Below, piece after piece: positions 1,610-39,663 of a stretch of 64,000 bases of DNA. The first letter of the stretch is position 1. The number at the start of each line of letters is the position of its first letter. The notes beneath the pieces are model-generated. The model searched no databases. It was not told where the DNA came from and saw only the letters and a program-made list of their open reading frames with translations. The stretch comes from Bacteroidia bacterium (GTDB taxonomy: Bacteria; Bacteroidota; Bacteroidia; J057). The stretch covers positions 1-64,000 of the forward strand of contig JAUIKF010000044.1 in NCBI GenBank assembly GCA_030430575.1. The letters are read 5' to 3'. A program made the position numbers and the translations under genes.

Positions 1610-1855
1610 GAGACCGTTCGTCGCTTCGCTCCTCACTGCGAGACCGCTCAGGCCGAAGACGGCCTTCGCTGCGAGATCGTTCGCTGGCGCTCACTGCGAG
1701 ACCGCTCGAAGACTCGCTACGAGACTAAAGGCAACGCCAAGGCCTCTTTTCATGTCTCGAAGCGAGGCGAGTCTTCGAGCCGAGCGGTCTCGCAGTGAGG
1801 CCTTTAGGCCGAACGATCTCGCCTCTCGCAGCGAGCCCGCAGGGCGAGCGGTCTC
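1610..1855. repeat. GAGACC giant inverted-repeat array, copy A
   Basis: A 246-bp array of roughly 20-30 bp units beginning GAGACCGCTC or GAGATCGTTC. Units point one way in the left half and the opposite way in the right half, so the whole can fold on itself around an unpaired centre near 1720-1760. The right end, GGTCTCAC on the plus strand, supplies the TGA stop of oadA. The array fills the gap between oadA and oadB, so it should be transcribed within the operon. Related copies are at 38343-38620 and 39416-39663. Confidence 0.9.
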
Positions 1856-3743
1856 ACTTGACCTTAGCGATTACATCGTCTTCGTCGACGGCGCTGCCTA
1901 CGTCTGCCAGCCAAGAGATGGTGCCATCTGTTTCAGCCGTGATGGCATTATAAGATTTCATCGCTTCTATATAGCCTATCACATCTCCTTTTTTTACGGT
2001 TTGGCCTACCTCCTTTGCCTTCTCTTGGTTGTCTTTGACCAGATAAAAAGTGCCTTCTAATGGCGCAATGACCTCCGCGCCAGTCGCATCTGCCACGGCT
2101 GGTGGAGGGGCTACGGCATTTGCATAGGCTTGGCTCTGAGGATCTGCTGCCGCACTTTCGCCATAAGAGACTTTTACCTCATAGCTCGCTCCATTGACTT
2201 CAATCTGAAGGTTTTTGGGTTGAGCAGGGAAAGCGTGTCCATTTTCATTGATCAAAGAATGATCGGCAGGTGCAGGGGCTTCTTCTGCCTTCTTTTTGGC
2301 TAATGTTTCTTCAAAGTCCGATTTGGCTTTGCCTGACTTATAGTTTTTGTATTGGGCTGCATGCATTGCGAACTCAAATAATTCTTCTTCATCTTGACCT
2401 AGATCCCAGCCGTTTTCCTGCATTTCTGCGCGAAATTGAGGGAGGGCGTCAGGATAAAGCGTCTGGGGATCTTCTTTGAAGAATTCTCGGTTTTGTGCTT
2501 TGGCCAGTTCCACTAGCTCAGGCGCCAAGGGGCCTGGCAAGCGGCCTGCACGCCCCATCATCATGTCCCACGTATTGTCATCGATAATGGTCCAGCGATC
2601 ACGTCCTTTGATCATTTGAAGCACATTCATCAACGCAGTATTCTTCACATACTGGCTGAAAGGCGTCACGAGTGGCGGATAGCCCATTTTGGGCCAGATA
2701 TAAGCTACTTCGTCAAAGAGTTTGATCAATACTTCTTCCGTAACGAGTTCTTCTAGGCCTTTTTTGCGACGAGATTTATTCAATTTCTCAACCCGCTCTT
2801 CGAGGTCTGTCATGAGGCTGCCCATCATGCCACCTGGCAAGCCAGGCTTGATAATCAGCGAATTCATTCGACGGTTGGCTGGCGGACTAAAGTATTTCAG
2901 GAAGTCTTCCAGAAATTCCATAGAAAGCGAACGCGCTTTCATATAGGCTTCCATATTGATGTCTTCGACTTCATAACCAGCATCGCGCAGCATTTCGTGA
3001 ACGGACAGCAAGTCTGCGTGGCCTGTGCCCCAAGAAAGAGGTTCCATGCCTACATCTACGATGTTGGCGCCACCGCGAACAGCCTCCAGGGTGGAGACGA
3101 TGGAGAATCCTGTCGTAGAGTGGCCGTGGTACTGGATCGTAATATCTGGATGGCGTTCGCGAATGCCCGCAACTATTTTTCCAATAAAAACGGGCCTTCC
3201 AACACCTGCCATATCCTTGATGCAGATTTCTTCTGTCCCCATCTCAATCAGGTCATCGGCCATTTTTACAAAATAGTCGACTGTATGGATAGGAGAGTAA
3301 GTAATGGACAAGGCCCCTTGAGAAATCATGCCTGCCTCTTTGGCGTAGTCAATGGAAAGCTGAAGGTTTCGGACGTCATTCAGCCCATCAAAAGACCTGG
3401 CGATGTCGGTGCCTTGGGCCTTTTTTACCTTGAACATCATCCGCCGTACATCCTTCGGAACAGGATTCATGCGAATTCCATTGAGGCCCCGCTCCAACAT
3501 CTGTGTCTGGATGCCTGCATCGTGAAAAGGCTTTGTCCAGGCACGAACGGAGTGGTTGGGGTTTTCTCCATAGAGCAGGTTGATTTGTTCAAATCCTCCA
3601 CCATTTGTCTCTACACGATGAAAACATCCCATCTCTACAATGGCCTCGGCGATGCGTACCAATTGGTCTTTGCGAGGCATGTATTTTCCTGAGGATTGCC
3701 ACATGTCGCGGTACACGAGGCACAGTTTAATCTTTTGTCCCAT
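1854..3743 (-). CDS. oadA: Oxaloacetate decarboxylase alpha subunit (biotin carboxyltransferase)
   Basis: It transfers the carboxyl group of oxaloacetate to biotin. The N-terminal TIM barrel has RDMWQS (about 12-17), a carbamylation-type Lys in CIKDMAG (about 176) and the metal-binding HGH motif (about 206-208). A conserved carboxylase domain follows, then a Pro/Ala linker and a biotinyl domain with AMK; the biotinylated Lys is about residue 596 of 629. I place the start at ATG 3743 (MGQKIKLCLVYRD). The open frame runs to 3845, but those 34 extra residues are an Ile/Phe run read from an intergenic GAAAAT repeat. The stop codon TGA lies inside the GAGACC array. The pyruvate carboxylase B subunit is related, but the oadG and oadB neighbours decide the call. 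Confidence 0.93.
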   Translation of the reverse strand: MGQKIKLCLVYRDMWQSSGKYMPRKDQLVRIAEAIVEMGCFHRVETNGGGFEQINLLYGENPNHSVRAWTKPFHDAGIQTQMLERGLNGIRMNPVPKDVRRMMFKVKKAQGTDIARSFDGLNDVRNLQLSIDYAKEAGMISQGALSITYSPIHTVDYFVKMADDLIEMGTEEICIKDMAGVGRPVFIGKIVAGIRERHPDITIQYHGHSTTGFSIVSTLEAVRGGANIVDVGMEPLSWGTGHADLLSVHEMLRDAGYEVEDINMEAYMKARSLSMEFLEDFLKYFSPPANRRMNSLIIKPGLPGGMMGSLMTDLEERVEKLNKSRRKKGLEELVTEEVLIKLFDEVAYIWPKMGYPPLVTPFSQYVKNTALMNVLQMIKGRDRWTIIDDNTWDMMMGRAGRLPGPLAPELVELAKAQNREFFKEDPQTLYPDALPQFRAEMQENGWDLGQDEEELFEFAMHAAQYKNYKSGKAKSDFEETLAKKKAEEAPAPADHSLINENGHAFPAQPKNLQIEVNGASYEVKVSYGESAAADPQSQAYANAVAPPPAVADATGAEVIAPLEGTFYLVKDNQEKAKEVGQTVKKGDVIGYIEAMKSYNAITAETDGTISWLADVGSAVDEDDVIAKVK

Positions 3744-3779
3744 TTTGATGCTGTTGTAGATATGGAAAAAAGAGGAGAA

Positions 3780-3838
3780 AAAGGAGGAAATGAAAATGAA
3801 AATGAAAATTAAAATGAAAGTTGAAATGAAAATAGGAA
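3780..3838. repeat. ATGAAAAT word repeat upstream of oadA
   Basis: About eight degenerate copies of the hexamer GAAAAT/TAAAAT lie just ahead of the real oadA start. Similar arrays occur at 14525-14559, 32773-32806, 33692-33746 and 63543-63585. Read in frame it gives a false hydrophobic N-terminus. Confidence 0.75.
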
Positions 3839-3933
3839 CTGACATGTTTCATTTTTGTCCCTTAATTATTCCTGCCTCTATTTTTCATATTTGTTATGTA
3901 AACTACTGACTATCAATAAAATATCATTTTTGA

Positions 3934-3960
3934 ACCCTGAACCCTGAACCCTGAACCCTC
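3934..3960. repeat. CCCTGAA heptad repeat
   Basis: Almost four tandem CCCTGAA heptads lie immediately before the oadG stop codon (minus strand), the same word and position as at the oadB end (117-141). Confidence 0.8.
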
Positions 3961-3961
3961 C

Positions 3962-4231
3962 TCATTTCTCCTTCTGTTCGATGTGCGTGACATTTCCTTT
4001 TCCATGAGTGACAACTTCCACGGTTGCCACGATTGCAGCGACAATGTCAGGTGACAATTCACCTGATTGGGGAAGCTTAGTTATAGGAAGGGGAGATGAA
4101 GTAGGGGAGGGAAAATAGCGGTCTACAATGCGTATTAGCACGTTTCCAGAAACAACTACCAAGGTGAGGATAGCAAATACCGTAGTCATACCCACCGCCA
4201 TTAGCATCCAAGCTGTGTTCATATTTTCCAT
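3962..4231 (-). CDS. oadG: Oxaloacetate decarboxylase gamma-type small membrane subunit
   Basis: A small 89-residue protein with one transmembrane helix at about 8-30 and a polar cytoplasmic tail ending in Lys/Glu residues. This is the build of OadG, which assembles alpha with beta. Sequence conservation in this family is weak, so the call rests mainly on size, topology and position as first gene of the operon. A 218-bp gap to oadA contains heptad and GAAAAT repeats. Confidence 0.75.
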   Translation of the reverse strand: MENMNTAWMLMAVGMTTVFAILTLVVVSGNVLIRIVDRYFPSPTSSPLPITKLPQSGELSPDIVAAIVATVEVVTHGKGNVTHIEQKEK

Positions 4232-4365
4232 AGGCTCCCTAATTGAAGCGTCTAAGATAAGGAAAATTCGAAAAAGAGTGGGAAAATAGGCGGGTTTATC
4301 GATTTAGTTCTCAAATTGTGGCCCTCAATTGATGGTATAAAAACTTCCAGATGGTACCCCTTGAG

Positions 4366-4551
4366 TACAATGTAAATTAAGTTCTAGCATAACAGCTCTG
4401 CTGTCATTTCGACGAGTCTTCGAGGAGAAATCTAACAGTTTGGTCTAGAAGCCTGGAAATAACCACTCAAAAGGGACTATTAGATTTCTCCCTTTGGTCG
4501 AAATGACAACTGTGTTGTGAGGAAAGGCCCAAAAATTTCTGTTACACTGTA
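4366..4551. mobile_element. MITE-like inverted repeat, copy 1
   Basis: The element has near-terminal inverted repeats (TACAATGTAA left, TTACACTGTA right). Inside them are paired arms TGTCATTTCGAC / GTCGAAATGACA and GGAGAAATCTAACA / TATTAGATTTCTCC, and a core with TGGTCTAGAAGCCTGG. Copies 2 and 3 lie at 28750-28968 and 33437-33655. It has no coding capacity. It occupies most of the 440-bp gap between oadG and the ABC-F gene, with the ABC-F promoter beyond it. Confidence 0.75.
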
Positions 4552-4589
4552 TTGAACCTCAGACCGATTAAACTCTTGAACTTTCTTTT

Positions 4590-4616
4590 TTGAAAAAAAA
4601 GAATTCCCTACCTTTG
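4590..4616 (+). promoter_or_regulatory. Bacteroidota-type promoter of the ABC-F gene
   Basis: TACCTTTG at 4609-4616 matches the TAnnTTTG -7 element of this phylum. A TTG at 4590-4592 could be the -33 element; the 16-nt spacing is slightly short. The ABC-F start is at 4673, leaving a leader of roughly 50 nt. Confidence 0.5.
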
Positions 4617-4672
4617 CGCGATTTTTGCACAGAAAATCGTAAGAATAGAACCTTTTAAAAACAGTCATATAC

Positions 4673-6298
4673 ATGCTTACAGTAAACAACCTGAGCCTCC
4701 AATTTGGCAAACGCATCTTGTTTGAAGACGTGAATATCAAGTTCACGCAGGGCAATTGTTATGGAGTGATCGGTGCCAATGGGGCCGGGAAGTCTACATT
4801 TCTCAAGATCATCAGTGGAGACATTGACCCTACAGGGGGCAGCATTTCCCTCAAGCCTGACAACCGCATGGCAGTGCTCAAGCAGAACCACTTTGAGTTT
4901 GAGGAGGAGCAAGTCCTCAATACCGTCATCATGGGCCACCGTGAGATGTATGACATCATGATTGAGAAGGATGCCATCTATATGGACCCCGATGCGACAG
5001 AGGCGGATGGCTTACGTGCGGCGGACCTTGAGGATAAATTTGGACAAATGGGGGGCTGGACCTCAGAGAGTGATGCGGCAGAATTGCTGAGCCAGATGGG
5101 CATCCGAGAGGATTTGCATTATAAATTGGTAAAGGAACTCAGTGGTCCTGAGAAGGTGAAAGTCCTGCTCGCGCAAGCGCTCTTTGGCAGTCCTGACCTA
5201 CTCGTCCTCGATGAGCCTACTAACGACCTGGATGCGCAGACCATCAGCTGGTTGGCAGATTTCCTGGCAGGATTTCCCAATACGGTGATTGTTGTGTCTC
5301 ACGACCGTTACTTCCTGGATATGGTCTGTACCCATATTGTGGACATTGATTTCAGCAAAATCCGCCTCTTCTCAGGAAATTATACTTTTTGGTACGAATC
5401 CAGTGAATTGCTCACCAAGCAACTCTCTGATAAGAATAAGAAGATCGCCCAAAAGCGCAAGGAGCTCCAAGAGTTTGTGGCGCGATTCAGTGCCAATGCT
5501 TCTAAGTCGCGTCAAGCGACTAGCCGTAAAAAAGCCCTCGAAAAACTCACCCTCGAAGACCTCCAGCCTTCCAGCCGTAAGTATCCTTACATTCAATTCA
5601 ATCCTGAGCGTGCGCCAGGTGGGCAGATTCTGGAAGTGGAGAACCTCAGTGCACATTCTGCTACGGGAGAACTGCTGTTCGAAAATGTGAGTTTCTCTAT
5701 GAATAAAGGCGATAAAATCGGGGTGGTGGGTAGCAACTCTGCTGCGATTACAGCTTTCTTTGAGGTGATGGCAGGGGAAAAGGAACCTACAACGGGCAAA
5801 ATCAATTATGGCCAGACCATCACGATGGATTATCTGCCCAATGAAAATGAGGCCTACTTCGCAGGCGCCAATGATATGAACCTCGTAGACTGGCTGCGCC
5901 AGTTTTCGGAGGAGAAAGACGAGCAGTTTATCCGCGGTTTCCTGGGGCGTATGCTCTTCTCTGGGGACGAAGTTCACAAAAAATCGAGTGTCCTCTCTGG
6001 GGGCGAAAAGGTGCGTTGCATGCTCTCCAAAGTCATGCTCAGCCACCCTAACTTCGTTTTGCTAGATGAGCCAACTAACCACCTAGACCTGGAGTCGATC
6101 ACTGCCCTCAACAATGCCCTCCGCGATTTTGAAGGCAACCTGATCATGGCATCTCATGACTACAAACTCATGAACACAGCGGCCAACCGTATCCTGGAGA
6201 TCGGCCCTGATGGCTTTGCTGATCGTCTGTTGACGTTTGAAGACTACCTCGCGCGTAAGCGCGAAGAGGCGGAAGCGGCAGCGCTTGCGCTGGCGTAG
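4673..6298 (+). CDS. ABC-F family ATPase (YbiT/EttA-like translation factor)
   Basis: A soluble 541-residue protein with two ATPase domains and no membrane segment, joined by a Lys/Arg-rich helical linker (about 235-310). This is the build of ribosome-associated ABC-F proteins. Domain 1 has Walker A GANGAGKS (about 34-41), signature LSGPE (156-160) and Walker B LLVLDEPTN (176-184). Domain 2 has a ruined Walker A, GSNSAAIT (about 352-359, no Lys), but an intact LSGGEK (about 441-446) and FVLLDEPTN. ATPase sites pair Walker A of one domain with the signature of the other, so one site is consensus and the other degenerate on both sides. A role in antibiotic resistance cannot be read from the sequence. 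Confidence 0.9.
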   Translation: MLTVNNLSLQFGKRILFEDVNIKFTQGNCYGVIGANGAGKSTFLKIISGDIDPTGGSISLKPDNRMAVLKQNHFEFEEEQVLNTVIMGHREMYDIMIEKDAIYMDPDATEADGLRAADLEDKFGQMGGWTSESDAAELLSQMGIREDLHYKLVKELSGPEKVKVLLAQALFGSPDLLVLDEPTNDLDAQTISWLADFLAGFPNTVIVVSHDRYFLDMVCTHIVDIDFSKIRLFSGNYTFWYESSELLTKQLSDKNKKIAQKRKELQEFVARFSANASKSRQATSRKKALEKLTLEDLQPSSRKYPYIQFNPERAPGGQILEVENLSAHSATGELLFENVSFSMNKGDKIGVVGSNSAAITAFFEVMAGEKEPTTGKINYGQTITMDYLPNENEAYFAGANDMNLVDWLRQFSEEKDEQFIRGFLGRMLFSGDEVHKKSSVLSGGEKVRCMLSKVMLSHPNFVLLDEPTNHLDLESITALNNALRDFEGNLIMASHDYKLMNTAANRILEIGPDGFADRLLTFEDYLARKREEAEAAALALA

Positions 6299-6304
6299 GA
6301 CAAT

Positions 6305-6376
6305 GTTTTGAGTTTAGGGTTTTGGGTTTAGTGTTTCAGAAATAACTCAAAACCCAAAACTTAAAACCTAAAACTT
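6305..6376. repeat. AAAACCT word-array hairpin
   Basis: The left arm is built of GTTTTGAGTTT words and the right arm of AACCCAAAAC and AACCTAAAAC words, so the two arms pair imperfectly around a short loop. It fills the gap between the ABC-F stop and the glycosyltransferase start. Confidence 0.75.
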
Positions 6377-6381
6377 CCTTT

Positions 6382-7449
6382 ATGCCCATCATTTTATTTG
6401 CCAATCTCTCCCGCGAATGGGGAGGCGGAGAAAAATGGTTTCTCACGGTGGGCTTAGCCCTGCGTGCAAGAGGGCATGATGTGCGGCTCCTGGTGTATCC
6501 TGGGTCGGTGTTGGAAAGGCGAGCCATAGCGGCGGAGGTGCCGTGTTATCCTATCGCTGCCCGCACAAGCAGTTTATTGAATCCCGTGAAGCTTTGCCGC
6601 CTGAAGCGCTTCGTTAAGCGCCTCCGGCCTGAAGCCGTAATGCTGAATGCGTCGCATGAGCTGAAGGTGATCGGCTTGGTTGCCCATTGGGCGAAGGTGC
6701 CGAAGGTGATATTTCGACGAGGGGTATCCTACGCTGTCAGCCAAAATCTGTTTAACCGATGGGTGATCCGCCACGCTGTCACCCACTTCCTCGCCAATTC
6801 AAACGCAACGTTTGAAGCAAATGTGAAGGCATTTCCTTCCCTTAATCAGAAAAAACACCTCACCGCTTACAATGCCATCGACCTCACGGCCTGGCAAACG
6901 GTGGAACCTGCCCCTGAGCCAGGACTGATCGTGATGTCTGCCCGATTATCGCCCGAAAAGGGCATTGAGCGTGCCATAGAGGCCATGCATTTGCTTCAAC
7001 ATAAAGGTGCTAATGCACATTTGTTGATCCTGGGCGAAGGCCCCGAATTGGCAAATCTGCAAGCGTTGGTTGCTAAATATGAGCTTGAGTCGGAGGTCAC
7101 TTTTGCGGGCTTTTTGGAGGATATTCGGCCGCAACTTAAACGAGCGAGTATTTTCCTCTTCACGCCTCATTTTGGCGAAGGGACGAGTATTGCCTTGATC
7201 GAGGCCATGGCATTGGGCATTCCTTGCGTCGCCTTTGAGACGCCAGCGATGAATGAGGTAATCATTCATGGAGAAACGGGCTTTCTGGCGCCTGATGGGG
7301 ATATTGAGGCGCTGAGTGGTTTTCTACAACAGTTGTTGAATGATGAGGCGATGCGGCAGGAGATGGGCCAGAAGGCTCAACAGCGTGCGGAGAAGCATTT
7401 TTCTTTTGATCGACTGGTCGATCAGGTGGAGGGGTTCTTAGAGTTGTAA
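6382..7449 (+). CDS. Glycosyltransferase family 4
   Basis: A 355-residue GT-B enzyme expected to transfer a sugar from a nucleotide-sugar to a cell-envelope glycan. The N-terminal half has a Gly-rich loop (WGGGEKW, about 13-19) and the C-terminal domain opens with ARLSPEKGIERAI. The EGTSIALIEAMA stretch is the donor-binding E-x7-E motif typical of GT4. No membrane segment. The only same-strand neighbour upstream is the ABC-F gene, and downstream lies convergent jetD, so the acceptor and sugar cannot be inferred. Confidence 0.85.
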   Translation: MPIILFANLSREWGGGEKWFLTVGLALRARGHDVRLLVYPGSVLERRAIAAEVPCYPIAARTSSLLNPVKLCRLKRFVKRLRPEAVMLNASHELKVIGLVAHWAKVPKVIFRRGVSYAVSQNLFNRWVIRHAVTHFLANSNATFEANVKAFPSLNQKKHLTAYNAIDLTAWQTVEPAPEPGLIVMSARLSPEKGIERAIEAMHLLQHKGANAHLLILGEGPELANLQALVAKYELESEVTFAGFLEDIRPQLKRASIFLFTPHFGEGTSIALIEAMALGIPCVAFETPAMNEVIIHGETGFLAPDGDIEALSGFLQQLLNDEAMRQEMGQKAQQRAEKHFSFDRLVDQVEGFLEL

Positions 7450-7483
7450 TGCATCAATTACCGTGAATATTTCTTTCAACAAT

Positions 7484-7537
7484 GGTTTTTTCCACTATTG
7501 CGACGGGTTTAAACCCGTCGCAATAGTGGAAAAAACC
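7484..7537. terminator. Perfect 54-bp palindrome at convergent gene ends
   Basis: Each half of 27 bp is the exact reverse complement of the other, centred on GGGTTTAAACCC with no loop. It starts with GGTTTTTT and ends with AAAAAACC, so it could act as a terminator in both directions for the convergent glycosyltransferase and jetD genes. The last codons of jetD lie inside it. A second 54-bp perfect palindrome is at 62697-62750. Confidence 0.8.
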
Positions 7538-8655
7538 TCTTCATGCAAAATCCGCTCTTGCTCCAGCCGAAAAGTATTCGCCTTGACTACATCATAAGCA
7601 GCCTCCTCGGCTGGCGTAAGGCCCTCCGGATCGCTCGCCCGATCTTCTACCCCAGTCACCACAAATGCTTCATAGCGTCTCAAGGTCTCTTGATCCATAA
7701 AGACGGACGCAACTTGCGGATATCGCTGCCGTACCTGCGCGAGGAAACGAAAGCCTTGCTGATCGAGGTCCCCCCAATAAAGGATGGAAGCATCTTCCAA
7801 CCAAGGAGCATGTAAACTTGCTACCGCATTGCCTTCCCCAAATATGCCTATGCCCCTCACCATAGCCGGCAACGTCAAAAACGGCATCAGATTTTCTGAA
7901 ATTACCACTTGCACATCGCGAAATGGCAAACGCCCAAAGTCTTCCATGGGAAGGCTCAGGTCATCAGAGGGTAAGCCCAGTTCGGTCACTAGGGCTGGAT
8001 CAAGGATTCGAAACCGCACCGTAATCGGTGCTTTTTTTACCCCAAACCGCGATTCAAAGTCGGTGGCATTCGCCAAGATCCCTTCATCTGGCAACAGGAC
8101 ATTCAGTAGGCGGCGCAAGATGTCTTTGTGTTGCTCGATGAATTTGCTGTGGACAGCGATGGGGAGTTCTCGGAGGTAGAGATTGGGGTTGGGATGTTGG
8201 AGAAAATAGGCGCATACTTTCAGCAAATCAGGCCATTGGCCTGCATATTGGATGACACTTTCTGGCCGTGCTTGCAGCCAGCTCTCTAGCTGCGGATACA
8301 CTTGTCGTATCAAGGCTACGTCTTCTATAAACTGCTGAAATTCAGCTTGTTTGTCGTGATAGCGCAAGAAGTCGTCTTGGGTGTCGAAAACAATTTTTTC
8401 GGGCAGACTTTGGGTGCCGTGACTGCGGGTTCGCGTGGGCGGGCCCAGTACCACGGTATAGCCATAGCCCACAGCTTGTTTGGAGGCTGCAATCAAACTG
8501 CGCTGCCAAGTACGGAGGCTGTCCCAGTCTGTGCGGCTAGAGGCCATCTTTGCAGGGATGCGAAGGGGAAAGAATGGCTCGTCTGCCAGCCATGCTTTGA
8601 GAAAGGCGGTGTATTTTTTACGGCTTTTTGCTTTTATTTCACTTGGCTTAATCAT
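7495..8655 (-). CDS. jetD: Wadjet type I nuclease subunit JetD (DUF3322/DUF2220)
   Basis: JetD is the Toprim-fold nuclease that cuts circular DNA captured by the JetABC loop extruder. The N-terminal half (about 1-190) fits DUF3322. The C-terminal half fits DUF2220, with ISENLMPFL, GIFGEGNAV and the acidic WGDLDQQGF motif near 293-301, the expected metal site. At 386 residues it is of normal length. It is the last gene of jetABCD; 90 bp containing an inverted repeat separate it from jetC. Its last dozen residues are encoded inside a perfect palindrome, so the C-terminus has been shaped by that repeat. Confidence 0.92.
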   Translation of the reverse strand: MIKPSEIKAKSRKKYTAFLKAWLADEPFFPLRIPAKMASSRTDWDSLRTWQRSLIAASKQAVGYGYTVVLGPPTRTRSHGTQSLPEKIVFDTQDDFLRYHDKQAEFQQFIEDVALIRQVYPQLESWLQARPESVIQYAGQWPDLLKVCAYFLQHPNPNLYLRELPIAVHSKFIEQHKDILRRLLNVLLPDEGILANATDFESRFGVKKAPITVRFRILDPALVTELGLPSDDLSLPMEDFGRLPFRDVQVVISENLMPFLTLPAMVRGIGIFGEGNAVASLHAPWLEDASILYWGDLDQQGFRFLAQVRQRYPQVASVFMDQETLRRYEAFVVTGVEDRASDPEGLTPAEEAAYDVVKANTFRLEQERILHEEVFSTIATGLNPSQ

Positions 8656-8666
8656 GCTTTAATTTG

Positions 8667-8743: not shown

Positions 8744-8745
8744 AT

Positions 8746-28733: not shown

Positions 28734-28749
28734 AACCCATCACTTTATT

Positions 28750-28968: not shown

Positions 28969-29021
28969 TATCATCAGTTGCAAATTAATAATCAATCAAT
29001 TAATAACTCATAATTTCCCCC

Positions 29022-30179
29022 ATGCTTCCCTCCCCAGATACCATCGCACATTTCGACCTGGATAGCTTCTACGTGTCCGTGGAGCGGCTGAAGGACAGTC
29101 GTTTGGTGGGGAAACCAATCATGATTGGGGGGAAAAGTGACCGAGCTGTCGTGGCATCATGCAGCTATGAAGCGCGCGCCTTCGGCGTGCGATCGGCGAT
29201 GCCGATGAAGCTAGCAAAGCGCCTATGTCCTGAAGCGACCTGCATTTCGGGGGATTTTGAGGCCTATAGCCATCATTCCAAGGTGGTGACAGACGTCATC
29301 CGAGAGGCTGCGCCTCTTTATGAAAAAGCGTCAATCGACGAGTTCTACCTGGACCTCACAGGCATGGATCGTTTTTTTGGTTCGTGGAAATGGGCCAAAG
29401 AACTGCGGGGGCGCATCATAAACGAGACGGGTTTACCCATCTCCCTGGGCGTATCTGTGAACAAGATGGTGGCCAAAGTCGCCACAGGTGAAGCCAAGCC
29501 CAACGGGCAGCGTCAGATACCGCGCCAGGAGGTCGAAGGCTTTTTAGCACCGATGCACATCCGCAAACTGCCCTTTGTAGGGCCTAAGATGTCGCAAAAA
29601 CTGGCGCAGATGGGCATCCAGCAAGTCGCTGACTTGCGAGAGATTCCCAAAGAATTATTGATCCATGTATTTGGGAAAAATGGGAAGATGCTCTGGGAGC
29701 GTTCGCGGGGCATTGATCACTCGCCCGTCGTGCCCGATAGGTCGCGCAAATCTATCTCTATGGAGCGCACATTTGAGACCGACATTATCGATGTCGAACG
29801 CATGTCCGCGATCCTGACCCGCATGGCCGGTCAACTCGGCCATCGCCTGCGTGTCACAGACCAGCAGTTTGGCTGCGTCGCCCTCAAAATGCGCTACGCC
29901 AATTTCGATACTGTGACCCGTCAGGTCAGCGTTCCGCTGACCTCTCGTGACGACGTCATCATCGAAAAAGCGCTTCAGCTCTTCGAAAAGCTCTACCAGC
30001 GGCGCCTGCGCGTCCGCCTCATCGGCCTACGACTCACCAATTTACACTACGGAAACCACCAAGTCTCCCTCTTCGAAGACACCCCACAGCAATTGGAACT
30101 CTACCAAGCCATCGACCACCTCAAAACCAAATTTGGGGAGAAGGTGATTGGGAGAGGAAGCGAGATGTATAGGAGGTGA
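29022..30179 (+). CDS. dinB: DNA polymerase IV (Y-family)
   Basis: An error-prone translesion polymerase of 385 residues. Palm motifs are AHFDLDSFYVSVE (about 9-21) and SIDEFYLDLTG (about 104-114), holding the catalytic acids. The helix-hairpin-helix region LPFVGPKMSQKLAQMGI and a little-finger domain follow. The C-terminus ends near residue 385 without a clear beta-clamp motif of the QLxLF kind, though QVSLFEDTP (about 355) is a good candidate. It stands alone; no LexA-type operator was seen. Confidence 0.93.
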   Translation: MLPSPDTIAHFDLDSFYVSVERLKDSRLVGKPIMIGGKSDRAVVASCSYEARAFGVRSAMPMKLAKRLCPEATCISGDFEAYSHHSKVVTDVIREAAPLYEKASIDEFYLDLTGMDRFFGSWKWAKELRGRIINETGLPISLGVSVNKMVAKVATGEAKPNGQRQIPRQEVEGFLAPMHIRKLPFVGPKMSQKLAQMGIQQVADLREIPKELLIHVFGKNGKMLWERSRGIDHSPVVPDRSRKSISMERTFETDIIDVERMSAILTRMAGQLGHRLRVTDQQFGCVALKMRYANFDTVTRQVSVPLTSRDDVIIEKALQLFEKLYQRRLRVRLIGLRLTNLHYGNHQVSLFEDTPQQLELYQAIDHLKTKFGEKVIGRGSEMYRR

Positions 30180-30184
30180 GAAGG

Positions 30185-30361
30185 GATTGCAGAATAATGA
30201 TTGCGGAACAAGGATTTTTGAAGGAAGACTCCCCTGAAAAAGATCAAGTGTCAAGCGCAAACTCAAGTTCAAAAAGAAGAAAAACTGCACTTGACACTTG
30301 TCCTTGAGTTTGAACTTTCATATTTCTTCAATCATCAATCCTTGTTCGATAGTCTGCAATC
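30185..30361. repeat. Nested inverted repeat between dinB and the esterase gene
   Basis: The outer arms are GATTGCAGAATAATGATTGC...GGAACAAGGAT and ATCCTTGTTCGATAGTCTGCAATC. The inner arms are CAAGTGTCAAG...CAAACTCAAGTTCAA and CTTGACACTTG...TTGAGTTTGAAC. The outer arm sequence recurs at 46827-46920. Confidence 0.75.
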
Positions 30362-30373
30362 TTTTTTTCTCCC

Positions 30374-32764: not shown

Positions 32765-32772
32765 AAGGAGGG

Positions 32773-32806
32773 AATTAAAATGAAAATTAAAATCAAAATG
32801 AAAATA
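32773..32806. repeat. ATGAAAAT word repeat upstream of the esterase gene
   Basis: Degenerate AAAATGAAAATTAAAATC words lie a few bases from the esterase start on the minus strand, the same family as at 3780 and 14525. Confidence 0.7.
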
Positions 32807-32866
32807 TGATGGTTCTAGTTTTCTGATCATAACTCACCATAATAATCAGCACTAAATGTCATCTTA

Positions 32867-33406: not shown

Positions 33407-33436
33407 TGATTATTAATTATTTAGGGAGATAGTGAA

Positions 33437-33655
33437 TACAGTGTAACCAAAGTTTTTCGCCATAACAACATTGTTGTCATTTCGACGACCGTAGGCTTTG
33501 CGGAGGGAGGAGAAATCTAACAATGTGGTCTAGAAGCCTGGAAATAACCACTCGAAATGGCGTGTTGGATTTCTCCTCCCCTCGCAAAGCCTCAGGTCGT
33601 CGAAATGACAACTTTGTTGTAGTGAAAAGGCACAGAAAATTTTTACCCATAGATA
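33437..33655. mobile_element. MITE-like inverted repeat, copy 3
   Basis: It has the left end TACAGTGTAA, the arms TGTCATTTCGAC / GTCGAAATGACA and the core TGGTCTAGAAGCCTGGAAAT, nearly identical to copy 1. The right terminal repeat is decayed. It fills the centre of a 483-bp gap that also contains ATGAAAAT-type words (33692-33746, 33811-33850) and the leucine dehydrogenase promoter. Confidence 0.75.
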
Positions 33656-33790
33656 TGAAGAGGCATCATAACACTGTTTTACCAACTAACATTTTCATTT
33701 TCATACTTCGATAAACTCAGCACAAATTTTAACTTTCATTTTCATTCACCCCTTATCTTGTAGCCTCCTACCAATTTTCAAAAAGTATCG

Positions 33791-33798
33791 TATTTTTG
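33791..33798 (+). promoter_or_regulatory. TAnnTTTG -7 element for leucine dehydrogenase
   Basis: TATTTTTG matches the phylum's -7 consensus and is followed by GC. The gene starts at 33890, implying a leader near 85 nt. A suitable -33 TTG at the right spacing was not found. Confidence 0.4.
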
Positions 33799-33889
33799 CC
33801 GAGTTAAAGACTCCATTTTTCATTTTTCATTTTTCATTCTCCATTCTTAATTCGTTTCTCTCCATCAGCCACACAACAAACAACAAAAT

Positions 33890-34957
33890 ATGCTATTCGA
33901 CAAACTCACCACTTACGACCATGAACAGGTCCTTTTTTGCAATGATAATGCGACAGGCCTGCGCGCCATCATTGCCATCCACAATACCACACTGGGCCCT
34001 AGTCTAGGGGGCATCCGCATGTGGAATTATGCTTCGGACGAGGAAGCGTTGACGGATGTCCTCCGCCTCTCCCGTGGGATGACCCTCAAGTCATCAGCGG
34101 CAGGACTTAACCTAGGCGGTGGCAAAGCCGTCATCATCGGGGATGCACGCACGCAGAAGAGTGAAGCCTTGATTCGTCGTATGGGGAAGTTTGTTAATAA
34201 CCTAGGGGGGAAATACATCGCTGCTGAAGATGTCGGGATGACAGAGCGCGACATGATAGATGTGCGGGCAGAAACCCCTCACGTCACAGGCCTGCCCGAA
34301 TTTGCAGGGGGGAGTGGAAATCCCTCGCCTATCACAGCCTACGGCGTCTATGTGGGGATGAAAGCAGCGATGAAGCACCAGACAGGAAGTGATTCAATGG
34401 AAGGAAAGCGCGTGATCGTACAAGGAGCCGGTTCTGTAGGGCGTGGATTGATTGAATTATTGGCAAAAGAAGGGGCTGAGATTTTGGTGTATGACATCTA
34501 TCAGCCATCGCTGGATGCCGTTGCCAAAGCCCACAAAGTGACGATTATCTCAGCGGAAGAGGTATACACCACTCAGGCTGATGTGTACGCGCCTTGTGCC
34601 CTTGGGGGAACCGTAAACCCCGACACCATTTCCCAACTTAACTGTAGCATTGTGGCCGGCGCTGCCAACAACCAATTGTTGGACGAAGTCCGAGATGGTC
34701 AAGCTTTGATAGATCGAGGTATCATCTATGCGCCAGACTTTGTGATAAATGCTGGGGGCGTGATCAATATCATCCAGGAAGTAGAAGGGGTAGCTTATAG
34801 CAAAGAGCGAGCGCTCAGCATGTGCGATCGCATTTATGATACGACTTTAAATATCTTGAAGACGGCTGATTCCAGCGGGATTACCCCCCATGAGGCGGCC
34901 CTCAAAATCGCCCAGGCACGGATCGATGCAATCGGCCATAATCGTTTGTTCATGTAA
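33890..34957 (+). CDS. Leucine dehydrogenase (Glu/Leu/Phe/Val family)
   Basis: It catalyses NAD-dependent reversible deamination of branched-chain amino acids. 355 residues. Substrate-site motif GPSLGGIRMW (about 36-45) and the catalytic Lys in LNLGGGKAVI (about 74-83). The NAD fold has VQGAGSVGRGLIELL (about 179-193). Late block APDFVINAGGVINI is typical of Leu/Val dehydrogenases. Phenylalanine and valine dehydrogenases are close alternatives, so the substrate is inferred. It precedes nusB by 77 bp. Confidence 0.88.
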   Translation: MLFDKLTTYDHEQVLFCNDNATGLRAIIAIHNTTLGPSLGGIRMWNYASDEEALTDVLRLSRGMTLKSSAAGLNLGGGKAVIIGDARTQKSEALIRRMGKFVNNLGGKYIAAEDVGMTERDMIDVRAETPHVTGLPEFAGGSGNPSPITAYGVYVGMKAAMKHQTGSDSMEGKRVIVQGAGSVGRGLIELLAKEGAEILVYDIYQPSLDAVAKAHKVTIISAEEVYTTQADVYAPCALGGTVNPDTISQLNCSIVAGAANNQLLDEVRDGQALIDRGIIYAPDFVINAGGVINIIQEVEGVAYSKERALSMCDRIYDTTLNILKTADSSGITPHEAALKIAQARIDAIGHNRLFM

Positions 34958-35034
34958 GGCAAAATATTTGCGTCATAAAATAAGTATGTATAGATTGCGC
35001 TTACAATTTGCGATAAGCAAGATTACTCAGATCT

Positions 35035-35601
35035 ATGATAACTAGAAGGCAAATCAGAGCCAAAGTAATGCAGGCTATTTATGCATGCACAGCCTCCCTT
35101 CAGGAGCCTAAGACAGTGTTTGATTTATTGTTAAAAGAGGCTGAAGAAGAGCTCAAGGAGATTGAAAAAAAGAAGAAACTGGTAGGAGATACCCGATTGT
35201 TGAGTTCCTTGTTTTACAATTGCCTGGAAAATGGCGATTGGTATGATGAGTTCATCAAGAGCAAAGCCGAAAACTGGGAATTGGACAGGATCGCTAAGAT
35301 CGACCGCATTCTCATGCATATGGGCATTTGTGAAATGCTCAATTTTGAGGAAATCCCAGTCAAGGTGACTATCAACGAATACCTCGAACTCGCCAAGACG
35401 TATAGTACGCCGAAAAGTAGCAAGTTCATTAATGGCATTCTTGATAGCTTATACAACGACTTCAGAGCTTCTGGTAGAATCCAAAAGTCGGGTAGGGGAC
35501 TGATCGAGCGGAGCATGCCGAAAACACCTCCACCCGCAAAAACACCTGAGCCTGCTGCTGAGAAAACAGAGGTCCCAGAAGAGTCACCCAGCAATCCATA
35601 G
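35035..35601 (+). CDS. nusB: Transcription antitermination factor NusB (compact form)
   Basis: 188 residues. The N-terminus RRQIRAKVMQAIYA is helix 1 of the NusB fold, and NWELDRIAKIDRILMHMGICEML with PVKVTINEYLELAKTYSTPKSSKFINGILD is the conserved core. NusB of many relatives has a long central insertion (near 300 residues in all); here that part is short. A Pro-rich tail of about 35 residues follows the fold. NusB binds boxA RNA with NusE. Next genes are DUF1573, yajC, ybbR and coaE. Confidence 0.88.
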   Translation: MITRRQIRAKVMQAIYACTASLQEPKTVFDLLLKEAEEELKEIEKKKKLVGDTRLLSSLFYNCLENGDWYDEFIKSKAENWELDRIAKIDRILMHMGICEMLNFEEIPVKVTINEYLELAKTYSTPKSSKFINGILDSLYNDFRASGRIQKSGRGLIERSMPKTPPPAKTPEPAAEKTEVPEESPSNP

Positions 35602-35619
35602 CATAGTTTTTTATAAAAA

Positions 35620-35665
35620 ATCCAAAAGGATCAAAAAAATCTCTATTTTTGCGAACCTTTTGGAT
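35620..35665. terminator. Hairpin after nusB with a TAnnTTTG in its loop
   Basis: Arms ATCCAAAAGG / CCTTTTGGAT are followed by TTTTTG, as for an intrinsic terminator with a large 26-nt loop. The loop contains TATTTTTG (35644-35651), a match to the phylum -7 element, which could instead start the DUF1573 transcript. The two readings cannot be separated by eye. Confidence 0.45.
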
Positions 35666-35763
35666 TTTTGCCCGTTCAAAGGGCTATAACTAAATCTTTA
35701 GGAGTAAAACATTAACATTTCACCGTTTTATACAAAACAACCCACATCAATTACTTTTTTATC

Positions 35764-36309
35764 ATGAAAAATTTTGCAATCGCTCTAGTCTCTCTCGTAT
35801 TTGTAATCGGCATGGCCGCTTGTAATTCTGAAGCAGGTGCAGGTGCAGACAAATCTGCCAATGGAGAACCTACTGCTGCTGCTACTGCAGACAATCCTAC
35901 TGCTACTACTGACAACCCAGCTGCTACTGCTACCCCTCCAGCTCCTAAGAAGCCAGGATGGCAAGAAAAAGCAGAAGCCATGGCCAAAACCAATGCCACT
36001 TTCGAAACTGAAGAGCATGACTTCGGTAAAGTAACCGACGGCGATATCGTACGCCACACCTTTACCTTCACTAATACAGGTGACAATCCTTTGGTCATCC
36101 AGCGCGCCAAAGCTTCTTGTGGCTGTACCGTACCTCAGTGGACCAAAGAGCCAGTCGCACCCGGTGAAAAAGGTGAAATCAACGTAGAATTTAACTCTAA
36201 AGGCAAAGTAGGTATGCAGACTAAGACGATCACAGTCACTGCCAACTTTGACGGAGGCATCAATAAAGTACTTCGCATCAAAGGTGAAGTAGCGCCAGCA
36301 GCTAACTAG
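35764..36309 (+). CDS. DUF1573 lipoprotein
   Basis: 181 residues with a lipoprotein signal (IGMAAC, Cys about 20). A low-complexity Ala/Thr/Pro/Asn linker (about 25-62) precedes one DUF1573 domain (about 78-178): FETEEHDFGKVTDGDIVRHTFTFTNTG and CGCTVPQWTKEPVAPGEKG. The domain is an ASH/MSP-type beta sandwich on the cell envelope of this phylum; function unknown. It lies between nusB and yajC as in many relatives. A strong terminator follows at 36368. Confidence 0.9.
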   Translation: MKNFAIALVSLVFVIGMAACNSEAGAGADKSANGEPTAAATADNPTATTDNPAATATPPAPKKPGWQEKAEAMAKTNATFETEEHDFGKVTDGDIVRHTFTFTNTGDNPLVIQRAKASCGCTVPQWTKEPVAPGEKGEINVEFNSKGKVGMQTKTITVTANFDGGINKVLRIKGEVAPAAN

Positions 36310-36367
36310 AAAACGCTATAAGAATTATTGATTGATAAATTATTGATTATTAATTCCTTATAAATCT

Positions 36368-36405
36368 GCAAAAAACGCCGAGAATTTCTTCTCGGCGTTT
36401 TTTGC
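36368..36405. terminator. Strong intrinsic terminator after DUF1573 gene
   Basis: A perfect 17-bp stem (GCAAAAAACGCCGAGAA / TTCTCGGCGTTTTTTGC) with loop TTTC. With A-run and T-run on either side, it can work in both directions. It is the clearest classical terminator in the window. Confidence 0.9.
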
Positions 36406-36462
36406 ATTATGAACTTTGTGCTTTCTTTGTAGCCGAACAAAAATGCAGATAACCATAAACAC

Positions 36463-36777
36463 ATGAATATCTTAACTATTTTTTTACAAGAAACTCCATC
36501 AGCAGGATTCGGAATTCAGAATATGCTATTCTTCCTGGGGATCATCCTAATCTTCTATTTCTTCATGATTCGTCCTCAGACCAAGCGCCAAAAAGAAGAG
36601 CGTATCTTTAGAGAGTCTTTGGGCAAAGGAGATAAGGTGCACACCATTGGTGGAATCCATGGAATAATCGTCACATTGGAAGAGAATACGGTGATTCTCA
36701 AAATTGATGATACCACCAAAATCAGGATAGAAAAATCCGCTTTGCGCGCTGCCCCAGCACCTGCTGAAAAGAAGTAA
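36463..36777 (+). CDS. yajC: Preprotein translocase accessory subunit YajC
   Basis: 104 residues: one transmembrane helix (about 18-40, MLFFLGIILIFYFFMIRPQ) followed by the conserved RPQTKRQKE motif and a small basic cytoplasmic domain (VHTIGGIHGIIVTL). YajC associates with the SecDF/SecYEG translocon. The ybbR-like gene starts 3 bp after its stop. Confidence 0.92.
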   Translation: MNILTIFLQETPSAGFGIQNMLFFLGIILIFYFFMIRPQTKRQKEERIFRESLGKGDKVHTIGGIHGIIVTLEENTVILKIDDTTKIRIEKSALRAAPAPAEKK

Positions 36778-36780
36778 CCC

Positions 36781-37770
36781 GTGGTTCCCCACAGGTATTC
36801 CCTCCGGCACCGATTTGGCTTCCTTTGGACCAAAGGCGTATGGCATCAATGGTTTAGGCTATTGGTCTTTTTCTGCATTTCCCTGGTTTTATGGGTTTTG
36901 GTTACCCTCAATCGTCCACATGAAACTCAGTTTAGCTTCCCTATTAGCATCAAGAATGTACCTGCCAATGTGAAGTTGACCTTCCCCCTCCCTACAGAGT
37001 TGGCTGTTACTTCCAGAGGAGAAGGGATGGACTTGCTGTTGACCCATTTGCGCCAAAAGAAAGATACTTTCCCCATCTTTTTCCCCTCTGAATCCAATCG
37101 GGAGGTCTTTTCAACGCAAGATTATTTGCCCAATATTCAACAATACTTCAGGCATCTTTCGACCAAGGGAATTCAGGTCATATCAGTTGATCCAGATGAG
37201 ATTGTAGTGGAGTTTGAGCCACAAGGTAAAAAGCGGGTAGCCCTGCGCAACCGCTTGCGATATGAGTTTCCCGCTGCCTACCAATTAGAATACGCTGAAA
37301 TCGTAAGTCCTGACTCTGTGAACCTGATGGGGCCTGAGAGGATGTTGGATTCTATTAACGAATGGTACACCTCTGATAGAGTGGTGAAGGTAGGTAAGAC
37401 GGCAGAAGATTTTAACGTGTCATTGGATACATTGGGAGGATTATTTGTCTCGCCCAACCAAGCCACTGTACATATCAAGCCCAGTGCCTATACCCAAAAG
37501 GAATTGTCGCTTTCCTTAATTATCAATGACCTCCCGGAAGATATCCAGGTGAACCTGAGCCATCAGGCCTTGAAGTTAGTATGCGTGGTGCCTTTGGATC
37601 AATATGATGAACTGGCAGCCAACTATGTATTGGAAATTTCCTATGGGGAGTTGGACCAGACCATTCCCTATTTTGTTCCAGATGCAGAGAAAGTCTTACC
37701 GCCTGCTGTCAAGATCGTAAGCAGATCACCTTTGCAAGTTTCCTATGTAATCGTCAATATGACCCCATGA
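36781..37770 (+). CDS. YbbR-like domain protein
   Basis: 329 residues starting at GTG 36781. One N-terminal transmembrane helix (about 24-45) is followed by a periplasmic part with two or more YbbR-like domains, seen as repeated beta patterns (ISIKNVPANVKLTFPLPTELAVTSRG, VSPDSVNLMGPERMLDSI). In other phyla YbbR (CdaR) regulates the diadenylate cyclase, but no cyclase gene is nearby. It overlaps coaE by 4 bp (ATGA). Confidence 0.82.
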   Translation: MVPHRYSLRHRFGFLWTKGVWHQWFRLLVFFCISLVLWVLVTLNRPHETQFSFPISIKNVPANVKLTFPLPTELAVTSRGEGMDLLLTHLRQKKDTFPIFFPSESNREVFSTQDYLPNIQQYFRHLSTKGIQVISVDPDEIVVEFEPQGKKRVALRNRLRYEFPAAYQLEYAEIVSPDSVNLMGPERMLDSINEWYTSDRVVKVGKTAEDFNVSLDTLGGLFVSPNQATVHIKPSAYTQKELSLSLIINDLPEDIQVNLSHQALKLVCVVPLDQYDELAANYVLEISYGELDQTIPYFVPDAEKVLPPAVKIVSRSPLQVSYVIVNMTP

Positions 37771-38360
37771 AAAAAATCGGAATTACAGGTGGGATAGGGA
37801 GTGGAAAAAGTACGGTGGCACGTGTTTTTCAAGCGTTGGGGTATGCAGTATATGTTTCAGATGAAAGGGCCAAATGGTTGATGGTGAATGACTTGGAGGT
37901 TGTAGCCTCATTGAAAGCAGCCTTTGGTCCAGCTACCTTTCACCCCGACGGCCAACTCAATCGAGAGCATCTCGCCCATATCGCCTTTCGCGATGCGGCT
38001 CAGCTCCAAGTGCTGAATGGAATTGTCCATCCTGCGGTAGCACGAGACTTTGACCACTGGATTGAATCGCTTCCCCGGGACTATGATAAAGCATTTGTCT
38101 TGAAGGAAGCAGCCATCCTCTACGAATCAGGGGCAGCTTCTCAGACTGATGGTGTCATCACTGTCTATGCACCTAAATCCCTGCGCATCCAGCGCGTTAT
38201 CAATCGTGATGGCACGTCTGAAGCGGCCGTCCTCGCACGTATGGATAAACAATGGCCTGACCTTGAGAAGATCCGCAGAGCGACATTCACCATCTATAAT
38301 GATGGGAAGCACCCAATCACCAAACAGGTGATCAAAGCTATAGAGACCGCTCGGGCCTAA
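37767..38360 (+). CDS. coaE: Dephospho-CoA kinase
   Basis: It catalyses the last step of coenzyme A synthesis. 197 residues with P-loop GGIGSGKST (about 8-16), the CoA-domain segment YVSDERAK, HPAVARDF and the LID-type VINRDGTSE. The C-terminus ends IETARA: the codons for ETARA and the TAA stop lie inside the GAGACC array (copy B), so the native C-terminus has been replaced or extended by repeat sequence. Last gene of the nusB cluster; convergent with cysQ. Confidence 0.92.
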   Translation: MKKIGITGGIGSGKSTVARVFQALGYAVYVSDERAKWLMVNDLEVVASLKAAFGPATFHPDGQLNREHLAHIAFRDAAQLQVLNGIVHPAVARDFDHWIESLPRDYDKAFVLKEAAILYESGAASQTDGVITVYAPKSLRIQRVINRDGTSEAAVLARMDKQWPDLEKIRRATFTIYNDGKHPITKQVIKAIETARA

Positions 38361-38620
38361 GAAGGCCCTCGCTGTCAGATCGTTCGTCGCGTTCGACTGG
38401 GCTCACGCCGAAGTCTTCGCTCCTCACTGTCAGACCGCTGTGCTACGAGACCGTTCGGCTCGAAGACTCGCTTCACTGTCAGACAAAGGCACCTCTTCTT
38501 CGTCTCTTGTCTGACAGCGAGACCCGTCTTCGGGTCGAGCGATCTGACTTCTGACAGTGAGTGCCGTAGGCGCGAACGATCTGACAGCGAGGGCTGAGTC
38601 TTCGAAGCCTGAGCGGTCTC
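38343..38620. repeat. GAGACC giant inverted-repeat array, copy B
   Basis: 278 bp between convergent coaE and cysQ; both stop codons lie within it. Units here carry TGTCAGAC on the left arm and GTCTGACA on the right arm, where copies A and C carry TGCGAGAC and GTCTCGCA. The change is made consistently in nearly all units and on both arms, so pairing is kept. The unpaired centre is near 38484-38508. Confidence 0.9.
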
Positions 38621-39392
38621 ACCGCTTTCCAAACGCCACAAAATGTGGGTTTAACAAATTCTCCTTATTATAAGTCAGCGGTAGCTGAGTTTCGTGATTG
38701 ATGACGCTGCCGCCAGCGGCCTCAAGGACAGCTTGTGCTGCACCGGTGTCCCATTCCATGGTAGGGGCCAGGCGCGGATAGATATCCGCTTTTCCCTCTG
38801 CCACCACCATGAATTTCAGCGAACTGCCCATGCTGACAATCTGCGGATTCGCGAATTGCTTGACGTAGGCTTCTACTTCTGGACTCATGTGCGACCGTGA
38901 AGCCACTAGTCGGAGGCTTGAGGCATGCATGTGCACTTGATTGGGTTCAAGGCTATTGATCTGATTATCACCGTTTTTGATAAAAGCCCCTTTCCCTGCT
39001 TCTCCGTAATAGGTCGTCCCTTGTACAGGTACATGGACCACGCCCATCACAGGCTTGCCTGCAGAAATCAAGGCGATATTCACAGTGAATTCACCGTTAC
39101 GCTTGATGAACTCTTTGGTGCCATCCAATGGATCTACGAGCCAGAATTGCTGCCAGTGGCGGCGGGTCTCATAAGGGATGGATTTTCCTTCTTCTGAAAG
39201 CAAGGGAATGTCGGGCGTAAGCTGGGCAAGGCCTGCAGCAATGACTTCATGGGCCGCTTGGTCGGCTAAGGTTAAGGGTGAATCGTCAGCCTTAAAGTCG
39301 ACTACGTCAAAGCGGGCCTCATCTGCGTAGACCTCTAGGATTTTGGCCCCTGCGGCCTCTGAAAGAGAAATGATATCTTGTATTGAAAACAT
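38619..39392 (-). CDS. cysQ: 3'(2'),5'-bisphosphate nucleotidase
   Basis: 257 residues of the inositol-monophosphatase superfamily. Metal-binding motifs are LLSEEGK (about 64-70), WLVDPLDGTKEF (about 84-95) and WDTGAAQAVLEAAGG (about 213-227). It removes the 3' phosphate of PAP from sulphate assimilation. DPLDGTKEFIKR is more typical of CysQ than of inositol monophosphatase. Repeat arrays lie on both sides: copy B supplies its TGA stop, copy C lies just upstream of its start. Confidence 0.9.
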   Translation of the reverse strand: MFSIQDIISLSEAAGAKILEVYADEARFDVVDFKADDSPLTLADQAAHEVIAAGLAQLTPDIPLLSEEGKSIPYETRRHWQQFWLVDPLDGTKEFIKRNGEFTVNIALISAGKPVMGVVHVPVQGTTYYGEAGKGAFIKNGDNQINSLEPNQVHMHASSLRLVASRSHMSPEVEAYVKQFANPQIVSMGSSLKFMVVAEGKADIYPRLAPTMEWDTGAAQAVLEAAGGSVINHETQLPLTYNKENLLNPHFVAFGKR

Positions 39393-39415
39393 GTATGAAG
39401 AAATTACGAATTAAT

Positions 39416-39663
39416 AGACCGCTCAGGCTCGAAGACTCGCCTTCGCTGCGGGACCGGTCGCCCTTCGGGCTCCCTGCGAGATCGTTCGTCGCGAAGCTCC
39501 TCACTGCGAGACCGCTCAGCTCGAAGACTCGCCTCGCTGCGAGACAAGAGAAAAAAATGCCTTTAGTCTCGCAGCGAGCCTGAAAGGCGAGCGATCTCGC
39601 AGTGAGTGCCGAAGGCGCGAACGATCTCGCCTCTCGCAGCGAGCCCGAAGGGCGAGAGGTCTC
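39416..39663. repeat. GAGACC giant inverted-repeat array, copy C
   Basis: 248 bp between the LegB-like gene and cysQ, both on the minus strand. Left-arm units (GAGACCGCTCAGCTCGAAGA) pair with right-arm units (GGCGAGCGATCTCGCAGTG) around a loop at about 39546-39567. The right end supplies the TGA stop of the LegB-like gene, in the same way as copies A and B. Confidence 0.9.

Follow-up and report, generated by a model that had tools for sequence, protein, structure and literature searches.

Repetitive extragenic palindromes (REPs) and bacterial interspersed mosaic elements (BIMEs) are high-copy palindromes tagged by GTAG or CGTC, found chiefly where neighboring genes converge or run in one direction. 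In the part of PMC3733652 that we draw on here, convergent REPs of P. entomophila and S. wittichii are mostly located within 20 bp of the 3′ ends of both open reading frames (ORFs), and GTAG ends of REPs often supply a TAG stop codon, so contact with stop codons has a precedent in an established class of repeats. Here we describe a family of large inverted arrays, which we call GAGACC arrays, in the genome of a Bacteroidia bacterium (GenBank assembly GCA_030430575.1). They came to light in a 64,000-nucleotide stretch of this genome (contig JAUIKF010000044.1, positions 1 to 64,000; contig C68 in our numbering, hereafter the window), where the original prediction, made from the letters of the window, had pointed to three hairpin arrays fused to stop codons. 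We confirmed all three (arrays A, B and C) in the window sequence, and we found that they belong to a species-specific, high-copy family.

REPs and BIMEs are the closest known kind to these arrays. Like them, the arrays are high-copy extragenic palindromes with units mostly 23–38 bp long (104 arrays in 1.24 Mb), they are placed near the 3′ ends of convergent or unidirectional genes with ends that supply stop codons, and their units occur in opposed orientations, here in 69 full inverted arrays. They differ in usually having three or four units per arm and a length of about 250 bp, in touching genes mostly inside the stop codon itself, and in filling many convergent gaps entirely. By eye we noticed no GTAG or CGTC tag in 45 arrays, whose units mostly begin GAGAYC or CAGAYC and end TGC, TGT or a one-base variant of these; the 439 units collected with a strict regular expression provide no independent test of the tag, because the expression fixes the unit start. 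None of the three matches to Y1_Tnp in this 99%-complete genome is a REP-associated tyrosine transposase (RAYT) flanked by a GAGACC repeat. With neither the tag nor an associated RAYT found, we do not class the arrays as REPs, and regard them as a species-specific compound family of REP-like palindromes.

Two further systems share some of these features. The heptamer repeats of Beggiatoaceae and some Bacteroidetes, in the portion of PMC4679880 used here, are tandem repeats near start codons, some of which overlap stop codons; those repeats are mainly direct and built from one word, whereas the arrays described here are inverted, form hairpins and use many vocabularies. Intrinsic terminators are likewise hairpins located 3′ of stop codons, but the arrays are about 250 nt long and one of them stands between oadA and oadB.

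A high-copy array family in one genome

The source genome totals 8.16 Mb in 127 contigs and is rated 99% complete. We counted 348 matches to the motif CTGCGAGAYCGYTC in it, against 0 for a reversed-pattern control. For detailed analysis we used a sample of 60 regions around motif matches plus the window, 1,239,337 bases in all; because the regions were picked for motif matches, on contigs C1–C86, per-gap rates in the sample are too high for the whole genome, and comparisons within the sample are fairer. Counting every cluster of three or more unit seeds as an array, and leaving smaller clusters out, we found 104 clusters in the sample. The sampled sequence holds 222 of the 348 exact motifs, which extrapolates to about 163 arrays genome-wide. 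Among 99 other genomes examined, the only one of the same genus has no match to the motif and five have one match each, and a scan of the innermost unit against the contigs of other genomes, which may exclude the source genome or very near ones, returned 0 records. Judging by CysQ, the host lies close to the Saprospiraceae: in a scan with this protein, none of the best 80 of 588 relatives exceeds 58% identity, Phaeodactylibacter and several Saprospiraceae rank high, and the top named match among the matches listed is from Phaeodactylibacter xiamenensis (56% identity). We found no description of such arrays in this bacterial group in the titles and abstract openings of the open-licence literature.

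The array unit consists of GAGAYCGYTC, an inner self-complementary stretch, and TCRCTGC, and 439 units matched the regular expression, with non-matching units left out. Units are direct in one arm and inverted in the opposite one, and the apex between the arms follows the pattern GAGAC TAAAGGCA...TTTTCTCTT GTCTC. An array is usually built from two inverted arms, each with three or four mini-hairpin units, that flank a short apex. Of the 104 clusters, 69 are full inverted arrays, in which each arm has two or more seeds. Another 27 are half arrays with seeds in a single orientation, of which a few may be fragments of larger decayed arrays; the outer end abuts a stop codon in 19 of the 27. Outer ends are GAGATC-like in only about 16 of 179 cases, as counted by eye, and otherwise far more often GAGACC-like, and inner units often use both forms. 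One gap (L055:7403-7827) contains two arrays, the first mostly of TGTC type and the second of TGCG type.

Array ends and gene ends

In the sample, 33 of 162 convergent gaps contain an array, as do 54 of 535 co-directional and 11 of 140 divergent ones (convergent versus divergent, Fisher P = 0.003). The precise contact with stop codons seen in the window is strongly supported by the wider sample: among the 108 gene 3′ ends that face an outer array end, 73 are at −3 to 0 nt from it and 13 at +1 to +5, while 10 read 17–53 nt into the array and 12 are at least 16 nt away. Array and gene overlap by 2 nt at 35 ends and by 1 nt at 18; in a parallel count the 2-nt class comprised 34 TGA and 1 TAA, and the 1-nt class 17 TAG and 1 TGA. 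At the 86 flush ends the stop codons are TGA (41), TAG (34) and TAA (11), compared to 313, 223 and 362 among all 898 ORFs. The contact is often two-sided, with 14 of the 26 full arrays in convergent gaps flush (−3 to +5) on both sides; in 5 more, one side is flush and the opposite ORF runs into the array. Convergent gaps free of arrays have a median length of 109 nt.

We compared array-facing proteins with their counterparts in a sister genome, dropping those with less than 38% identity or more than 25 unaligned end residues, which left 13 of the 34 genes that had a match, out of the 108. Seven of the 13 end at the identical position and 12 are within 5 residues, and in the thirteenth the sister version carries a long tail coded by a repeat. 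Arrays thus begin, for the most part, at or close to where the gene natively ends. At L253, which holds the gene matched by L065:10115-10769, the sister protein has a C-terminal REARTES run coded by a tandem repeat at the gene end.

Start codons are approached less closely. We obtained 62 distances from array ends to start codons, of which 6 are strongly negative and were judged to be ORF artefacts; the other 56 have a median of 42 nt, with none below 7 and 10 at 13 nt or less (8 of them at 11–13 nt).

Paired changes within units and between arms

Changes within units are matched. The Y in CGYTC and the R in TCRC form a pair (Y8–R) that is Watson-Crick in 418 of the 439 units (C-G in 238, T-A in 180). 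Fourteen inner stretches were found with both states of Y, and the pair is kept in 130 of the 138 units that contain them. We examined the inner stems in two sets of distinct units, together 97 of 251. In 35 units with an 11-nt inner stretch (set A1), 97.1% of cells pair, compared to 74.2% in shuffles, and the stem changes comprise 50 double and 0 one-sided changes and 6 unpaired cells; in 62 units with a 16-nt inner stretch (set A2), 83.9% of cells pair, compared to 71.3%, with 65 double and 2 one-sided changes and 80 unpaired cells. The covariation scores of both sets are above all 500 shuffles, though kinship among the units may inflate them.

Between the arms of the 69 full arrays, to which this comparison was restricted, the CG/TC linker variant is matched in 130 of 153 pairs (shuffled mean 0.656, s.d. 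0.030). In contrast, the C/T position of GAGAY is uncompensated (99 of 153 matched; shuffled mean 0.680). Compensation between arms thus holds for CG/TC and failed for GAGAY. The inference in the original prediction, that pairing is maintained and that units are homogenized within an array, is supported by the matched changes within units and by the sharing of CG/TC between arms.

Mismatches between arms

RNA helices usually pass through G-U steps, which the stem changes here hardly do. If the palindromes were under selection on one transcript strand, G-U would be expected to be tolerated over A-C. We counted mismatches between arms in gaps of 60–300 nt that passed the word test described below and an alignment score, a filter retaining 15 of the 29 co-directional gaps with arrays. 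In co-directional gaps, the ratio of G-T to A-C mismatches is 23:32 for GAGACC arrays, 42:45 for other word arrays of the same genome, and 17:22 for those of the sister genome. Given paired changes almost without G-U steps and no sense-RNA bias in co-directional arms, we favor, with modest confidence, palindromes that are made or kept at the DNA level; the power of the mismatch test is limited. The ratios in convergent gaps without GAGACC arrays are 22:15 (own) and 10:12 (sister).

Inverted arrays of unrelated words

Many gaps without any GAGACC unit contain inverted arrays of other short words, such as GATAGAATGA/TCATTCTATC, TTGAAC and GGTTTTA in this genome and GGGTTTC in the sister genome. 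In a test that required coverage of at least 0.3 each by direct and by inverted 7-mers in gaps of 60–300 nt, word arrays were found in 67 of 421 gaps that lack GAGACC arrays in this genome, in 31 of 368 in the sister genome and in 1 of 102 across three other genomes of the family. None of these gaps passed after a single mononucleotide shuffle. Among mixed named loci, 13 of 200 passed, compared to 5 of 200 in shuffles. Few word arrays lie in divergent gaps (2 of 74 own, 0 of 85 sister). They start a median of 4–5 nt past the stop codon and, in co-directional gaps, end a median of 11–12.5 nt before the next ORF start, though the coverage filter itself shortens these edge distances.

Folding of whole gaps (60–300 nt, up to 90 per class) was a poor discriminator, with hairpins across 19 of 77 convergent gaps in this genome, 11 of 62 in the sister genome and 4 of 31 in named genomes, and the combined direct-plus-inverted word test separated the genomes better. 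One convergent gap in the window (30179–30373), with words unrelated to GAGACC, folds as a single hairpin over most of its length.

The genome also has a REP family of its own. At L093:1414-1956 a RAYT has several copies of its own REP family on both sides (GGCGGATTACGC...ATCCGGAAATCCGCC). From 15 sampled copies of this REP we obtained 14 core-to-gene-end distances below 400 nt, of which 1 is within 5 nt. A match to an IS200-type transposase at L091:1501-1860 contains an internal stop.

The three arrays of the window

All three arrays form much more stable folds than dinucleotide shuffles do (z = −8.7 for A, −10.1 for B and −7.9 for C), and in each case 0 of 200 shuffles equalled the array. 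Within the window, fusion to stop codons is confined to the right ends of the arrays, and ORFs confirm that the TGA at each right end is shared with an oadA-like gene, cysQ and a LegB-like gene, respectively. Array C begins one base earlier than proposed, at 39415, and units are mostly 23–38 bp rather than about 20–30 bp. A search against Rfam 15 for known RNAs gave 0 matches above the gathering cut-off in the window.

Array A (1610–1855) is a full inverted array in the oadA–oadB gap. Its left arm (1610–1720, plus strand) has four units (1610–1639, 1640–1672, 1673–1697 and 1698–1720) composed of GAGAYCGYTC, an inner stretch and TCRCTGC, with the last closing as ...TCGCTAC. The apex (1721–1758) reads GAGAC TAAAGGC ... 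CTCTTTTCAT GTCTC, and the right arm (1759–1855, minus strand) has three units, its outer end providing the GA of the oadA stop codon. The oadA-like gene (1854–3845, minus strand) is predicted to encode an alpha subunit, with a score under the NCBIfam oadA cut-off; its stop TGA (1856–1854) overlaps the array by 2 nt, and the protein ends at the conserved C-terminus. On the other side, a putative oadB-type beta subunit of a sodium-pump decarboxylase (142–1593, minus strand) has its start codon 16 nt past the array. Five of ten relatives searched have a close oadA, and in these the aligned oadA–oadB gap (the piece next to the oadB start) is 3–55 nt long, compared to a 246-bp array plus 16 nt here. 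The C-terminus of OadA lines up with that of four of these relatives and falls one residue before that of the fifth. A large palindrome therefore sits within a normally tight gene pair, and a terminator role cannot be assumed for it.

Array B (38343–38620), in a convergent gap, is a full inverted array in which the variant TGTCAGAC predominates, as proposed, with at least one TACGAGACC kept. A coaE-like gene for a putative dephospho-CoA kinase (37767–38360, plus strand) runs 18 nt into the array and has its TAA stop codon inside it. From the other side, cysQ (38619–39392, minus strand) overlaps the array by 2 nt with its stop TGA (38619–38621), and the C-terminus of CysQ is 2 residues short of the end of the sister protein. 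Array C (39415–39663), also a full inverted array, has TAGACC at its left end, 22 nt before the cysQ start, and its right end shares 2 nt with the stop TGA (39662–39664) of a gene for a LegB-like NAD-dependent dehydratase (39662–40639, minus strand; below the NCBIfam cut-off).

Discussion

The reading that we favor, which we hold at slightly short of an even chance, is that GAGACC arrays fill dispensable DNA between genes, that their palindromes are kept at the DNA level, and that contact with stop codons marks where dispensable DNA ends. The arrays would occupy DNA that can be spared, and their outer ends would meet stop codons since coding sequence bounds that DNA, with selection retaining those junctions that leave an in-frame stop. 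On the start side, where arrays stay 7 nt or more and commonly tens of nucleotides away, leader or promoter sequence may be needed. Pairing would be created or kept on DNA, for example by hairpin-templated correction or by gene conversion between units, and not through selection on one RNA strand. Unrelated short words may follow a similar gap-filling habit, both here and in the sister genome. We infer this process and the order of events from the arrays as they now stand, as we would any effect on mRNA 3′ ends or on read-through.

Several observations weigh against this reading. GAGACC arrays meet stop codons at a median distance of 0 nt and word arrays at one of about 4 nt, already shortened by the filter, and the sharper contact of the former could reflect a specific junction mechanism. 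Copies of the genome's true REP are not flush with stop codons, so contact is not common to every repeat. Seven of the 26 full arrays in convergent gaps lack two-sided flushness, some of them through apparent artefacts of seeding or ORF calling, and the start side of the gap is left unfilled. Compared to shuffles, neither A1 nor A2 shows an excess of pair types, and A1 shows none of changed pairs either; in A2, 80 of 496 cells are unpaired, 61 of them at two inner pairs. In convergent gaps with GAGACC arrays, G-T exceeds A-C (61:40, P = 0.046), although both strands are transcribed there, which leaves the sign of this lean without clear meaning. In addition, gene calls are greedy ORFs, the sample was selected by motif, and the comparison genomes reach the sister level, with none from a closely related strain.

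One explanation offered in the original prediction was a mobile or copying element aimed at stop codons. A REP/BIME-like element of this kind, with its terminal GAGACC fitted to the stop, would account for the sharp junctions and their overlaps of 1 or 2 nt, the skewed stop usage at flush ends, the abundance of the motif here against 0 matches in the same-genus genome, the appearance of array A in a gap that is short in five relatives, and the abutment of stop codons by most half arrays. We consider it unlikely, though a serious contender, because convergent arrays are so often flush on both sides, because arrays occur in 11 divergent gaps without a facing stop codon (several of them probable ORF artefacts), and because unrelated repeats are likewise close to stop codons. 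Target-site duplications of 2–10 bp in 74 arrays show no clear excess over shuffled flanks at any size (the highest is at 4 bp, with 4 observed, a shuffled mean of 1.3 and a maximum of 5), for which reason we also rejected a DNA transposon or miniature inverted-repeat transposable element. Nor did we find a transposase tied to the unit: no GAGACC-type units are near any of the three Y1_Tnp matches, which argues against a RAYT-driven REP; the REP-type match has different repeats, and one match is 210 bp from a contig end with its upstream side unseen, so a split copy is possible.

The other explanation offered, an RNA or DNA structure that controls transcript ends, fares somewhat worse. A structured 3′ untranslated region or insulator RNA, selected for mRNA stability, for effects on translation termination or for bidirectional termination, would fit the excess of arrays in convergent over divergent gaps and the very stable folds. 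E. coli REPs near stop codons are reported to act on translation, with ribosome stalling reported for REPs within 15 nt of stops, in the part of PMC12306157 used here. We nonetheless think such a role quite improbable as the explanation for the family, given the absence of a sense G-U bias in co-directional gaps (a test of limited power), the near-absence of one-sided changes, and the position of array A within a tight gene pair. Intrinsic terminators with a GC stem and T-tract can be set aside as well, with 0 terminator-like sites inside arrays B and C, the two arrays that the scan covered, and with a T5 run in only 16 of the 69 apexes and an A5 run in only 8. Although the genome is a draft in 127 contigs, chance or an assembly artefact is scarcely credible as the source of the arrays, since the reversed-pattern control found nothing and the arrays are internal to contigs with differing flanks. 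Overall, the interpretation in the original prediction is partly supported, in that the stop-codon junctions and the maintained pairing stand, and neither stop-codon targeting nor selection on one transcript strand is favored.

If arrays fill dispensable DNA that ends at stop codons, two ideas that are easily mixed for REP-like repeats are separated, namely targeting of stop codons and filling of spare DNA up to them. The near-absence of G-U intermediates also gives a straightforward way to tell intergenic hairpins maintained by selection on RNA from those maintained by copying of DNA.

The more novel part of the proposal is palindromic filling across the lineage. We raise it as a speculative extension, which we rate as unlikely: an unusually active DNA process of the lineage, such as hairpin-templated synthesis with slippage, may keep rewriting intergenic DNA into inverted word arrays of many vocabularies, up to stop codons and partly into leaders, with GAGACC arrays as its most elaborate product in this genome. 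If so, the DNA between genes in these bacteria would amount to palindromic filler that renews itself, and its edges would chart selective constraint base by base. The array edges would then show how much sequence each gene needs around it: often nothing after the stop codon and, ahead of the start codon, a leader that varies in length but spans 7 nt or more.

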